NCBI RefSeq assembly: GCF_001514195.1
Contig: NZ_KQ948737.1
Span: forward strand, 248,001-312,000
From: Streptomyces griseorubiginosus
GTDB lineage: Bacteria > Actinomycetota > Actinomycetes > Streptomycetales > Streptomycetaceae
Direction of reading: 5' to 3'
Length of the DNA: 64,000 nt
Below are positions 1-3,941 of the stretch, in pieces; position 1 is the stretch's first letter; every line of letters starts with the position of its first letter. Made by a program: the position numbers and the translations under genes. Below the pieces are notes generated by a model, which did not search any database, was not told where the DNA came from, and was given only the letters and a program-made list of their open reading frames with translations.

Positions 1-2132
1 CCGCCGGCACCCCAGATGTCGGCTCCCGCGTCGGTGACGGTGAAGCTGCCACCGCTCTGGCCGGTCAGGCCGGGAGTGGAGGAGTAGCCGCTGTAAGGGG
101 CCGTGACGGGGCCCGTTGTCAGGGGCCGGTACTGGGGCTGGATGCCCGCGTTGTTCATGACCGTGCGGGCGCCGGAGGGCCAGTTGCCGTCGGATACGAC
201 CACCGTACCGCTCACGACATTGCCGCGGTTACCGTCGGTTATGTCGGTCGAGGAGTTGCTCGTCCAGTTGTTCTGGACGGTCAGGGCACCGGTGTTGTTG
301 GTGGAGTTGGCGTTCTCGTGGGCCCACTCGCCCACGTTGCGGAAGACGTTGTTGGTGTCCGTGAAGTGCCGGGAGCCCTCGTCGTGGTAGAAGCCGAAGT
401 AGTTGTTGTTGGTGTGGCAGTAGTTGCGTTCGAAGGTGCTGCCGGGCGAATCCGACAGGGTGTACAGACAGCCGCCGTCGTTCATCTGCTGCATGATGTC
501 GTGGATGTAGTTGTCGGTGATGTGGTTGTTCGCGGCGGTGGTGGGAGTCGAGTAGACGGGCTGGTAGTCGTACAGACCGCGGTTCGCGTAGTCCTGGCTG
601 CCGCCCGGGTCGTTGACGCCCCAGCCGTAGCCGATGGTCAGCCCTGAGTAGGGCAGGTTGTACACCTCGTTGTGCGAGACGGTCGCGCCGTTGACGTAGG
701 TCAGCAGGATGGCCGACATGTCCCGGTAGTCGATCGCCACGTCGTGGATGAGGTTGTTGCTCAGGGTGATGTTCTTGTTGGTCATCCGGCTGTCACTGGG
801 ATGATGCGCGTCGGCCTGGAGCCCGCCCACGGCGATGCCGCCGCCGGCGTCCTGGGTGAAGACGTTGCCGTTGGCGGTGATGGTGTCGGCGCCGAGGCCG
901 ACCCCGGTGGCGTGGGCGTTGGCGTCCTGGCCGATGCCCAGCGCCACCTGCCCGAGCTGGGTGAACCGGTTGCCGGTGAAGGTGATGTGGTCGGCGGCCG
1001 AGACCTGGACGGCGGCCGGCATCTGGTCCCAGTGGGGGCGGGTCGCCTCGAAGAGCGGGCAGCCGCTCTGGCAGGAGGTCAGCGCGTCGGAGGGGCGGTT
1101 CCAGGTGCCGGTGAGGTACGCGCCGGTCTGCTGGCTGGCGTAGCCGCGAGTGCTGGGGTCCAGCCAGCTGGTGCCGGAGAACTGGAGCCCTGAGAACGTG
1201 ATGTGGGTGGCGGGAGAGGCATAGCTTCCCCCGACGTCGATGAGCGAGTCCAGCTTCGGCACCTCGACGTCCGCGGTGCTCATGCTCTGCCCCGGCAGCG
1301 GCTTGTAGTAGAGGGTGCCGGTGCCGGTGTCGAGGTACCACTCGCCGGCCGCGTCGAGGAACTCGTAGGCGTTCTCGATGTAGAGCGATGCCGCCCGGAA
1401 GGGTTTGGTCAGGGTGTCGTAGCCGAAGGTGTTGTCGTCCCAGGCGGGCTGATCCATGGTGATGGTGCCGTTGCTGATGCCGGACACCGGGGAGTAGCGG
1501 TCGGTGAAGGAGCCGATGCCGTGGATCTCGGTCCGGCCGGGGTTCGCAAGGGTGTTGAGGTAGTTCAGCGCGCTGTTGGTGAACGTGTAGCCGCTGGTGG
1601 TCGCGGTCAGGTCGGCGCGGTTGATCGAGGATCGGGCCCTGGTCGCCAGGACGCCGTCGACGTACAGCTGCCGGGTGTCGAACCCGGTCCCGACATTGGC
1701 CTTCCAGATGTTCTTCGCCGAGTCCTGCACGGTCCAGCCCGTGGCCCGCTGCGCGCCGGTGATGACCGGGCGGGCGCCCGGCGCGGCCTTCCAGATCACC
1801 GAGTTGCCGCCGGTGCCGGAATCGGCGGAGGTGAAGGTGAGGGGGGCCGTCAGCCGGTACGTACCGTCGGCGACCTCAACCACGATGTCGCCCGTCATGG
1901 AGCTGCTCATCGCCCGGACGTTGGTCTTGGCCTGGGTCAGGGAGCACGGCTGGCTCGTCGAGCAGGCGGTGCCGGTGCCGTCGGGCGACACATGGAGTGT
2001 CGCGGCGGTGGCGGCTGACGCGGGCACGGCCTGCGCGACGACGGCGCCGGCAGAGGCGGTGAGGAGAGCGAGAGCCGCCAGACATGGTCTGAGCCGGTCA
2101 CGCAGTGCGGGACGAGGGCGGGTTGGGCGCAT
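1..2132 (-). CDS. Secreted right-handed parallel beta-helix protein (3' end beyond window)
   Basis: Only the first ~710 codons are visible because the gene runs off the left edge. The ATG at 2132 opens a Sec signal peptide: basic stretch RPTRPRPALRDRLRP, hydrophobic core LAALALLTASAGAVV, and a likely Ala-x-Ala cut near residue 40. The mature part starts LHVSPDGTG and then shows beta-helix rungs with Asn-rich turns (ITFTGNRFTQLG, ITLSNNLIHDVAI, TVSHNEVYNL, HITDNYIHDI). Proteins of this pectate-lyase-like fold usually bind or cut polysaccharides outside the cell. The substrate and catalytic residues cannot be read here. The gene has its own promoter (2230-2257) overlapping an operator shared with the upstream GntR gene, so that regulator probably controls it. 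Confidence 0.85.
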   Translation of the reverse strand, partial: MRPTRPRPALRDRLRPCLAALALLTASAGAVVAQAVPASAATAATLHVSPDGTGTACSTSQPCSLTQAKTNVRAMSSSMTGDIVVEVADGTYRLTAPLTFTSADSGTGGNSVIWKAAPGARPVITGAQRATGWTVQDSAKNIWKANVGTGFDTRQLYVDGVLATRARSSINRADLTATTSGYTFTNSALNYLNTLANPGRTEIHGIGSFTDRYSPVSGISNGTITMDQPAWDDNTFGYDTLTKPFRAASLYIENAYEFLDAAGEWYLDTGTGTLYYKPLPGQSMSTADVEVPKLDSLIDVGGSYASPATHITFSGLQFSGTSWLDPSTRGYASQQTGAYLTGTWNRPSDALTSCQSGCPLFEATRPHWDQMPAAVQVSAADHITFTGNRFTQLGQVALGIGQDANAHATGVGLGADTITANGNVFTQDAGGGIAVGGLQADAHHPSDSRMTNKNITLSNNLIHDVAIDYRDMSAILLTYVNGATVSHNEVYNLPYSGLTIGYGWGVNDPGGSQDYANRGLYDYQPVYSTPTTAANNHITDNYIHDIMQQMNDGGCLYTLSDSPGSTFERNYCHTNNNYFGFYHDEGSRHFTDTNNVFRNVGEWAHENANSTNNTGALTVQNNWTSNSSTDITDGNRGNVVSGTVVVSDGNWPSGARTVMNNAGIQPQYRPLTTGPVTAPYSGYSSTPGLTGQSGGSFTVTDAGADIWGAG

Positions 2133-2229
2133 CTGGGACCTTCCGATGGTGCAAGAGGGCACGCGCAGGCGTCCTCCCCCTCAGCGGGATGCGGCCCTGC
2201 GGTGATTGCGGAGGTGATACGGCGACGTA

Positions 2230-2257
2230 ACATTAGTCGTCATACGTATGCTGTCAA
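2230..2257 (-). promoter_or_regulatory. Sigma-70-type promoter of the beta-helix gene
   Basis: On the minus strand, TTGACA (2257-2252) and TAATGT (2235-2230) are separated by 16 bp. Transcription would start near 2223, giving a leader of about 90 nt before the ATG at 2132. The spacer is filled by the palindrome CATACGTATG, the centre of the putative GntR operator. Confidence 0.6.
2234..2255. promoter_or_regulatory. Putative GntR operator, copy 1 (beta-helix promoter)
   Basis: Read on the minus strand this is GACAGCAT-a-CGTAT-g-ACGACTA. The copy at 3174-3195 is identical except at the two lower-case positions (20 of 22 bases). The centre ATACGTAT is palindromic, as expected for a dimeric GntR protein. 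It lies between the -10 and -35 boxes, where binding should block RNA polymerase. Confidence 0.65.
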
Positions 2258-2294
2258 TATGTGCCGCAGAAACTGATCTGCACCCCAAAAGGAA

Positions 2295-2323
2295 CCGCCC
2301 CCGGGCCTACGACCCGGGGGCGG
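2295..2323 (-). terminator. Hairpin terminator after the GntR gene
   Basis: A perfect 11-bp stem (2295-2305 with 2313-2323, CCGCCCCCGGG) encloses a 7-nt loop. On the minus strand it is followed by TTCCTTTT. It lies 30 bp past the stop of the GntR gene and separates it from the beta-helix transcription unit. Confidence 0.75.
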
Positions 2324-2354
2324 ATACCGGCGCGCGCAAAGGTGCAGCGGGCGC

Positions 2355-3119
2355 TCAGCTGGCGATGTCGGGGTGCGGGATTCGGCGGCGGCTCCAGGCC
2401 GCTTCGATATGGGCCGTCATGGCCTGCGCCGCACCCTGCGCATCGCGGGCCAGGAGTCGCTCGACGATCCGGCGGTGCTCGGCGTTCGCCTGCTCGCACG
2501 AGTGGCCGTCGGGAGTGCCGTTGTACAGGAACGTGCTGCGGGCCTGGGTGTGGACGGTCCGGATGATGGAACGACCGAGCCTGTTCCGGGACGCCTGCAT
2601 GATCCGGTCATGGAAGAACACATCGGTCTCGACGAACCGGGCGGGAGCGGCGATCTCCTCGTCGAGACGGTCGAGCAGCCGCTCCACCTCCCGGAGATCG
2701 TCGTCGGTGGCGAGTTCGGCGGCTTGGGCCGCCATCTGCGCCTCGAGGGCGGAACGCACGCCGACGAGCTGGTCCAGCACGACGAGTTCACCGTCGTGCT
2801 GGACGGTGGCCGCCAGGACGACGGGATCCAGGAGGTTCCACTCCTCGGGCTGGGTGACGGTGGTGCCGGAACCCTGCCGGGCCCGAACCAGCCCCTTGGC
2901 CTCCAACGACTTGACCGCCTCGCGGACGGTGATCCGGCTGACGCCGAACGTCTCGCACAGTTCGGGCTCGACGGGCAAGGTGGCGCCGGGCGGAACGGCA
3001 CCCGAGACGATGCTGTCGGTGAGGGACTCCACCACCGCGTGGGCGAGCCGCGCAGGTCGCTTGGGCCACGGTTTCAGGGCTGCCGGATCCTGGACACCGC
3101 TTCGACCGCTCTTCGCCAT
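2355..3119 (-). CDS. FadR/GntR-family transcriptional regulator with FCD domain
   Basis: A 254-residue DNA-binding repressor of the FadR subfamily. An N-terminal winged helix (about residues 20-90 of the longest frame) carries the hallmark LCETFGVSRITVREAVKSLEAKGLV. A C-terminal all-helical FCD domain follows, with acidic and His residues (FVETDVFFHDRI, NAEHRRIVERL) typical of its metal and ligand pocket; FCD ligands are usually small organic acids. I chose the ATG at 3119 because GAGGGGG lies 6 bp upstream. An earlier in-frame start at 3170 would almost abut the operator at 3174-3195 and has no ribosome-binding site. The matching operator at the beta-helix promoter suggests autoregulation plus control of the neighbouring secreted protein. 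Confidence 0.85.
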   Translation of the reverse strand: MAKSGRSGVQDPAALKPWPKRPARLAHAVVESLTDSIVSGAVPPGATLPVEPELCETFGVSRITVREAVKSLEAKGLVRARQGSGTTVTQPEEWNLLDPVVLAATVQHDGELVVLDQLVGVRSALEAQMAAQAAELATDDDLREVERLLDRLDEEIAAPARFVETDVFFHDRIMQASRNRLGRSIIRTVHTQARSTFLYNGTPDGHSCEQANAEHRRIVERLLARDAQGAAQAMTAHIEAAWSRRRIPHPDIAS

Positions 3120-3151
3120 AAGGGCCCCCTCACCGCTGTGGACGATCGCCG

Positions 3152-3195
3152 AGTCTACTGCTCGCGACACCTAGACAGCATTCGTATTACGACTA
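3152..3195 (-). promoter_or_regulatory. GntR gene promoter with putative operator copy 2
   Basis: The operator copy is at 3174-3195 (plus strand GACAGCAT-t-CGTAT-t-ACGACTA). A TAGACT-like -10 box on the minus strand lies at 3157-3152. Transcription would start near 3145, with the operator about 30-50 bp upstream over the -35 region, consistent with autorepression. Confidence 0.55.
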
Positions 3196-3311
3196 CGGGG
3201 CTTCCCGCCTGACCAGGGTCCCACCGACCCCGGCTGCGGCACAGACCGGTCGGGGCTCGCATGCCAGAATGGAGAGTCCGTTCTCCGCCCGGCTTCTTCG
3301 AGGTTCCCTTC

Positions 3312-3941
3312 GTGTCCCAGCCCGTCGGTCGTGTGCCCCAGCGACGCAACGCCCGGTCCAACCGGGCGCGCATCCTCGCCACCGCCCGCCAGGAGCTCGG
3401 GCGGAATCCCGACGTCACCCTGGAGGAACTCGCCCGCGCCGCCGGTGTCGTACGGCGCACGCTGTTCGGGCACTTCCCCGGCCGGGCGGCGCTGCTGGAC
3501 GCGCTGGCCGAGGAGGCCGCAGAGGCGATCCATGCCGCCGTTTCCGCAGGAGAAGGCGGGACGGAACCGGCCGACCGGGCCCTCGCCCACTTCACGTTGG
3601 CGCTGTGGCCCGTCGGCGACCGTTACCGGATGCTCCTGGCGCTGGCCCGACGGGACCTCGGCATGGACCGGGTCGCCGGGATCCTGGAGCCCGCCCGGGT
3701 CAGGGTCGCGGCCGTCCTGGAACAGGGACAGCGGGACGGGATCTTCCACACGCAACTGCCGGCCCCGGTCCTGAGCGCCGGTCTGGAGGCGATGACGGTC
3801 GCCCTGCTGGAAGAGGTCAACACCGGAGCGCTGGAGGACGACGGCACCCGGGTGGCCGTCACGACGCTGGTCGCGGCCGGGGTGCCGGAGAAGCGGGCGC
3901 AGATCGTGGTCGACGAGGTGGCAGCAGCCGCCGAGGGGTGA
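3312..3941 (+). CDS. TetR-family transcriptional regulator
   Basis: A 209-residue regulator. The N-terminal helix-turn-helix reads NRARILATARQEL, then VTLEELARAAGVVRRTLFGHFPGRAALLDAL, the classic TetR pattern with the HF recognition end. The rest is a helical ligand-binding domain without a recognisable ligand class. The GTG at 3312 is preferred because GAGG lies about 9 bp upstream; an in-frame ATG at 3261 has no such site. An imperfect inverted repeat (GGAGAG-TCCG-TTCTCC, 3271-3286) lies just upstream and may be its own operator. Its helix-turn-helix closely resembles the decayed TetR gene at 7875-8085 beside the efflux pump, so the two are probably paralogues. The gene ends before a terminator at 3958-3982. 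Confidence 0.85.
   Translation: MSQPVGRVPQRRNARSNRARILATARQELGRNPDVTLEELARAAGVVRRTLFGHFPGRAALLDALAEEAAEAIHAAVSAGEGGTEPADRALAHFTLALWPVGDRYRMLLALARRDLGMDRVAGILEPARVRVAAVLEQGQRDGIFHTQLPAPVLSAGLEAMTVALLEEVNTGALEDDGTRVAVTTLVAAGVPEKRAQIVVDEVAAAAEG

Follow-up and report, generated by a model that had tools for sequence, protein, structure and literature searches.

The window analysed here is a stretch of 64,000 nucleotides from the 9.87-Mb genome of Streptomyces griseorubiginosus (C4:248001-312000). Near its left end, the genes for a GntR/FCD regulator and for a secreted-type, GH141-like beta-helix protein are arranged in tandem on the minus strand, and both reading frames are intact (Table 1). The beta-helix gene extends leftward beyond the start of the window, and its product contains two DUF1349 stretches. 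The GntR gene begins with an ATG, and most aligned orthologues use the same start.

Table 1. Features around the regulator gene, in window coordinates
Feature	Position	Strand	Remarks
Secreted-type GH141-like beta-helix gene, 5' part	1..2132	minus	1052 aa whole, L005:10974-14132
Operator-like site 1 (H class), in the beta-helix promoter spacer	2234..2255	minus	counterpart in 29/32 orthologous loci
Terminator-like hairpin, 13 pairs, 3' of the GntR gene, between GntR and beta-helix genes	2295..2323	minus	
GntR/FCD (FadR-subfamily) regulator gene	2355..3119	minus	254 aa; FCD 2.9e-25, GntR 9.8e-21
Operator-like site 2 (O class), over the putative GntR -35 region	3174..3195	plus	counterpart in 32/32 loci
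Rearrangement junction	3195..3199		fucose-locus homology up to 3194, TetR-kinase homology from about 3197
TetR-family gene	3312..3941	plus	brought next to site 2 by the junction; unlikely to be a target

A reading of the letters alone, referred to below as the sequence-only reading, had proposed that the two genes share a nearly identical 22-bp operator, and the pair is indeed present: site 1 reads GACAGCATACGTATGACGACTA on the minus strand (2255-2234), site 2 reads GACAGCATTCGTATTACGACTA on the plus strand (3174-3195), and the two are identical at 20 of 22 positions. The promoter proposed for the beta-helix gene consists of a putative -35 box TTGACA (2257-2252, minus strand), a 16-bp spacer and a putative -10 box TAATGT (2235-2230). 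The position assigned to site 1, between these boxes, is conserved across loci, but the 22 bp overlap both of them, taking in the last four bases of the putative -35 and the first two of the putative -10. The other copy had been placed over the -35 region of the GntR gene, for which a putative -10 box TAGACT is found at 3157-3152 on the minus strand, and a counterpart lies upstream of the regulator in 32 of 32 orthologous loci. A strict sigma-70 scan of positions 2000-3400 returned no promoter-like sites, so the assignment of all these boxes depends on their conservation between loci.

When region 2133-3300 was simulated with a first-order Markov model, a match of 20 out of 22 was reached in 1 of 100 simulations. 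The pair by itself is thus only moderately unlikely, and the case for the sites is decided by comparison with related loci. Genomes of the genus (199, then 392) were searched for the regulator at E <= 1e-90. It was found in only 20 of the 392, its own genome counted, which makes it an accessory gene; its closest named relatives are Streptomyces proteins. The comparison set contains 32 further loci whose regulators share at least 67% identity with it, 19 from the 392-genome search and 13 from a second search, in which 33 loci were found and nine that were already counted and 11 below 67% were set aside. None of the 32 duplicates the record of another; the most similar pair is 97.2% identical. 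A relaxed site pattern, GACNNNATWCRTATKACGWCTW, was written after 19 of the 32 loci had been viewed. The class O site, upstream of the GntR gene and in reverse orientation, is present in all 32 loci, in 29 of them with no mismatch to this pattern and in three with one or two, and a class H site precedes the beta-helix gene, where expected, in 29. In all 13 loci that were not used for the consensus both sites match the pattern without mismatch. Within the 64-kb window, the pattern with up to three mismatches finds the two sites only. The simulation result would leave some room for a chance match, but conservation of both sites at orthologous places refutes it, and its probability is negligible.

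The beta-helix gene directly adjoins the regulator in 28 of the 32 loci. In G107 an open reading frame of 460 aa (L056 7927-9309) lies between the two genes and the operator stays with the beta-helix gene; G099 ends at a contig edge, where the site is present and the beta-helix gene lies off the contig. In G183 the locus is rearranged and the enolase-family gene adjoins a second, broken copy of the regulator. G186 has genes for a mutarotase, a hydrolase, an SDR and a lactonase upstream of the regulator and in the same direction, and no beta-helix gene was found within the 20 kb examined. Where the beta-helix gene occurs in tandem copies (G013 and G294), each is preceded by its own site. One locus of S. 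antibioticus DSM 40234 (L165 6760-7060) retains the promoter and operator of the beta-helix gene but lacks the start region of the usual gene; a different beta-helix gene, 31% identical, follows the operator, an apparent swap of the controlled gene.

In the relatives, the counterpart of site 2 also lies in the promoter spacer of a divergent operon, between its putative -35 and -10 boxes. Aligned promoters of the beta-helix and operon directions follow the form TTGAC-N4-ATWCRTATKACGWC-TWAYGT with few departures, the spacer after the TTGACA-type hexamer being 16 bases long. The conserved block runs from TTGAC to TWAYGT, and the 22-bp match is therefore a mixture of operator and promoter bases. 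This extension, which reaches even beyond the boxes, is what would be expected if the block were a fixed-spacer -35/-10 element recognised by an alternative sigma factor or by some other regulator and not an operator of this GntR protein. We regard that reading as improbable. The spacer bases ATNCNTATGACG are conserved as strongly as the promoter boxes; in the GntR direction the site is inverted and covers the putative -35; the block has remained beside the GntR gene in S. griseorubiginosus, where the operon is missing; and a form of the site with one to three mismatches to the relaxed pattern stands immediately before the regulator in all five loci compared from Lentzea, Nocardioides and Solihabitans, whose regulators are 44-61% identical.

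At larger distances the site is not always present. Among 15 distant loci (L038-L046 and L061-L066; regulators 38-52% identical) a form with three mismatches lies about 110-120 bp before the regulator in L061-L064, and no site was found near the regulator in the other 11 (L038-L046, L065 and L066), including L065, where a beta-helix gene adjoins. The site was not found in the six remotest loci of the second search, L192-L197, either. Regulators 45-52% identical occur within a few kb of beta-helix genes 45-50% identical in L061, L062 and L065, and the association of this regulator type with GH141-like genes is thus wider than the operator form studied here. A regulator group of 41-42% identity (L041-L043) stands beside a similar gene set with a repeated motif of its own, GACAGCATACGTATKATGTTTC and variants, one copy of which is near the start of an AKR or zinc-dehydrogenase gene.

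The symmetry of the sites can be drawn in more than one way. The sequence-only reading had centred the palindrome on ATACGTAT, which is intact in site 1, and site 1 taken alone does pair better there (6/9, against 4/9 at GT-ATK-AC). Site 2, however, carries ATTCGTAT and pairs better at GT-ATK-AC (7/9, against 4/9 at ATACGTAT). Over 12 chosen site types the two centres pair at 66/108 (GT-ATK-AC) and 65/108 (ATACGTAT), and a third centre at 54/108; the core G is replaced by A in 10 of 37 unique site windows. The operator consensus described for the FadR subfamily is GTM-N-KAC (PMC4494728), and both cores, GTATGAC in site 1 and GTATTAC in site 2, fit it. This consensus and the G183 site, a near-perfect palindrome ATTCGTATTACGAAT, favour GT-ATK-AC, which on these sequences appears at least as likely a centre as ATACGTAT. 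The pairing counts alone do not decide between the two, and the proposed ATACGTAT centre is doubtful.

The domain composition of the regulator, a GntR HTH domain (PF00392) followed by FCD (PF07729), both above their cut-offs, places it in the FadR subfamily. Among the best 25 of 28 matches to curated NCBIfam equivalogs no cut-off was reached (NanR 120.6/260, LldR 86.1/311, UxuR-type 62.2/442), and the best solved match by sequence is 7c7e (E 5e-26). Asp166, His170, His215 and His237, invariant in an alignment of 13 regulator proteins, are candidate ligands for an Asp-His-His-His arrangement, which we take to be the FCD metal-ligand pattern. DgoR, ExuR, LldR and GlcC are described as FadR-subfamily regulators of sugar acids and related acids (PMC4494728). 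The present protein resembles them in its winged HTH and FCD domains, in the GT-N3-AC core of its sites and in the placement of these, both at its own promoter and at adjacent genes, and by analogy it is most likely a repressor. It differs in its predicted targets, an L-fucose-type operon and a GH141-type enzyme, and in that the operon is missing from this genome. In the literature searched, with most subscription journals outside the search, no title or abstract dealt with a GntR-type regulator of fucose use in Streptomyces.

What the regulator may respond to is suggested by the genes that its relatives face. A divergent operon gene lies opposite the regulator in 30 of the 32 loci, coding for an enolase-family protein in 28 and for a binding protein in two. 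The genes found on this side encode an enolase-superfamily protein, a sugar ABC transporter, a mutarotase, an FAH hydrolase, an SDR, an aldo/keto reductase and a lactonase. All eight query proteins were matched in ten loci (G139, G104, G124, G108, G097, G197, G242, G294, G252 and G263); the other loci show fewer, in part because shorter stretches of DNA were compared. The best solved match of the mutarotase (G139) is the L-fucose mutarotase 7byu (E 2.9e-34). The lactonase (G107) matches 4dlf (E 8.1e-47) with L-fucono-1,5-lactonase as its best family, the hydrolase matches the diketo-acid hydrolase family with a best family named for L-rhamnonate, and the best solved match of the aldo/keto reductase is an L-galactose dehydrogenase. 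Neither the lactonase nor the hydrolase reaches its curated NCBIfam cut-off, and no equivalog or named dehydratase model is reached by the enolase-family protein (371 aa).

Non-phosphorylating L-fucose catabolism appears to be the best fit for the fuller operons, an assignment that we base partly on general knowledge of the pathway. Mutarotase, AKR, lactonase, enolase-family protein, SDR, FAH hydrolase and ABC transporter are all shared with operons of that pathway; the difference is the lack of a named dehydratase model for the enolase-family protein. Because the family scores are below cut-off, they do not distinguish L-fucose from L-galactose or another 6-deoxy-L-sugar. The switch could then be real and serve L-galactose, L-rhamnose or a methylated 6-deoxy sugar of rhamnogalacturonan-II. 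The reductase match to L-galactose dehydrogenase and the action of BT1002, the GH141 enzyme discussed next, on RG-II (PMC10154630) would agree with this, but mutarotase and lactonase both indicate L-fucose, and we consider another sugar unlikely, though it is the strongest of the alternatives.

The second predicted target had been described as a probable polysaccharide-active secreted protein, and this description is supported. The product matches the catalytic beta-helix of BT_1002 (5mqp) with E 2.5e-43, a similarity that places it with GH141, and the GH141_M insertion domain scores 32.4, above its cut-off of 27; the general Pfam Beta_helix model, at 21.3, remains below its own of 25.9. For BT1002 a review gives D523 and D564 as the catalytic Asp pair (PMC10154630). 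Asp552 and Asp584 of the S. griseorubiginosus protein align with this pair, and Asp occupies both places in 21 of 21 beta-helix proteins; the correspondence between paper and chain numbering assumes an offset of 5, backed by the 41-residue spacing, which one other Asp pair in the fragment also has. Judged from these alignments the product is a GH141 relative that keeps the catalytic pair, and it is probably carbohydrate-active; its N-terminal sequence suggests secretion. It resembles BT_1002 in its beta-helix and Asp pair and differs from it by the two DUF1349 stretches, which are C-terminal. GH141 is stated also to include a xylanase (PMC10154630).

In S. griseorubiginosus the L-fucose catabolic operon is absent beside the regulator. 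The locus is the only one of the 33 in which no operon gene of the relatives' type was found, and a TetR-kinase pair takes the operon's place opposite the GntR gene. The genome contains no close orthologue of the operon's first gene, and the closest relative of the enolase-family protein is 31% identical. Near the locus there are only weak pathway paralogues, an SDR at 35% (L005) and an FAH-family gene at 37% (C4:258305). At the DNA level, 90.4% identity to G242 extends across L005:10904-15194 and stops at window position 3194; homology to G049, at 92%, starts at 3197. These two limits define a junction at the outer edge of site 2, which by this alignment removed the -10 side of the operon promoter. 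G049 gave no regulator match in the genus searches, and its TetR locus is without such a gene. The TetR gene is not favoured as a third target of site 2: its own upstream DNA is kept, the homology to G049 starting at 3197, and the divergent -10 of the relatives is missing here. A search for the kinase in six relatives (E 1e-150) gave no match and, having been run without a positive control, carries no weight.

The missing operon may reflect insertion of the module or loss of the operon in place; the flanking DNA on both sides is unlike that around the G242 and G104 loci. With regard to horizontal transfer of the module, identities in the rpoB region (92.0% to G049, 92.8% to G104, 92.6% to G139, 90.4% to G242 and 92.0% to G124) do not separate the histories. 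The lower G+C content of the module (67.7%, against 72.4% and 70.3% in the flanks) is only a hint of such transfer.

A scan for further copies had been proposed as a way to the regulator's carbohydrate regulon, and no such regulon emerged from it. With the merged 22-mer and up to three mismatches no third copy beyond sites 1 and 2 was found in the 9.87-Mb genome, and the reversed control had 0 matches. The 14-base core with up to two mismatches gave 55 matches including both sites, against seven for its reversed control; 11 of the 55 are one variant, AGTCGTACGACGWC, and none lies inside the three other fucose-type loci (C3, C5 and C10). These loci are three further fucose-type catabolic gene sets (L109, L110, L111 and L112), each with a GntR-type gene nearby. 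At least two GH141-like beta-helix genes lie beside the set on C10, and a fuller relative of the hydrolase, at 63%, stands alone on C13. Another ATACGTAT, in the form CATACGTATAACGTC then CATACGTA, is present at C6:302249 (L002 1501-1508) just before a gene that is presumably LacI-like, judged by its start, and may be this regulator gene's own site.

The absence of the operon raises the question whether the remaining module is a decaying relic whose sites no longer matter. The operon was not found and its promoter is cut at the junction; site 2 departs from the usual sequence of the relatives at positions 15 and 22 of 22, and its flank reads TAGACA where the relatives have TTGACA. For the enzyme, a dN/dS of 0.62 between G242 and G104, which both keep the operon, indicates that selection on it may be loose in general. 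The ratios for the S. griseorubiginosus genes themselves point the other way, however, at 0.14-0.18 for the GntR gene against three relatives and 0.31-0.33 for the enzyme against two. The regulator has a single change of its own at an otherwise invariant column of the 13-protein alignment, and both frames are open throughout. A relic is therefore a rather unlikely reading, only slightly more probable than the promoter element considered above.

In view of the above we favour the following explanation, to which we assign, taken as a whole, a probability of roughly 0.7. The subfamily of the regulator and the gene content around it would suggest repression rather than activation, the inducer and the substrate of the enzyme. 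The FadR-subfamily GntR regulator would bind both sites flanking its gene. In the ancestral locus, which the relatives retain, one shared site would have served for repression both of the regulator itself, which in occupying its own -35 region would limit its own synthesis, and of the divergent operon for uptake and catabolism of an L-fucose-type sugar. At the second site, in the promoter spacer, the bound regulator would block the GH141-type gene. Release of the regulator would come from a sugar-acid intermediate, for which L-fuconate and its 2-keto-3-deoxy derivative are the probable candidates.

In S. griseorubiginosus a rearrangement would have placed the module of two genes and two sites against an unrelated TetR-kinase region, with the breakpoint at the outer edge of site 2. 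The operon is missing together with the -10 side of its promoter; what remains are the sites through which the regulator would control itself and the enzyme. With the sites conserved, the operon absent and the junction at the operator edge, the locus resembles an autoregulated switch of the L-fucose type of which two genes are left. The sequence-only reading holds in its main lines, with another likely symmetry centre, a GH141-type assignment for the enzyme, a probable sugar and a third target that is missing here. The inducer would then have to come from one of the other fucose-type pathways of the strain. That the repressor and the exported hydrolase, cut from their operon, form a self-sufficient switch supplied by a paralogous pathway is a more tentative proposal, which we hold at somewhat less than even odds.

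If correct, this last proposal would mean that regulation has become uncoupled from the module's own catabolic operon and now depends on a paralogous pathway. For a Streptomyces regulator that was otherwise anonymous, the analysis supplies a probable sugar, an enzyme family and an operator consensus valid in 33 loci. The locus would also offer a clean natural example of a regulon severed at an operator, in which comparison of this strain with operon-bearing relatives could test how sensing is linked to catabolism.
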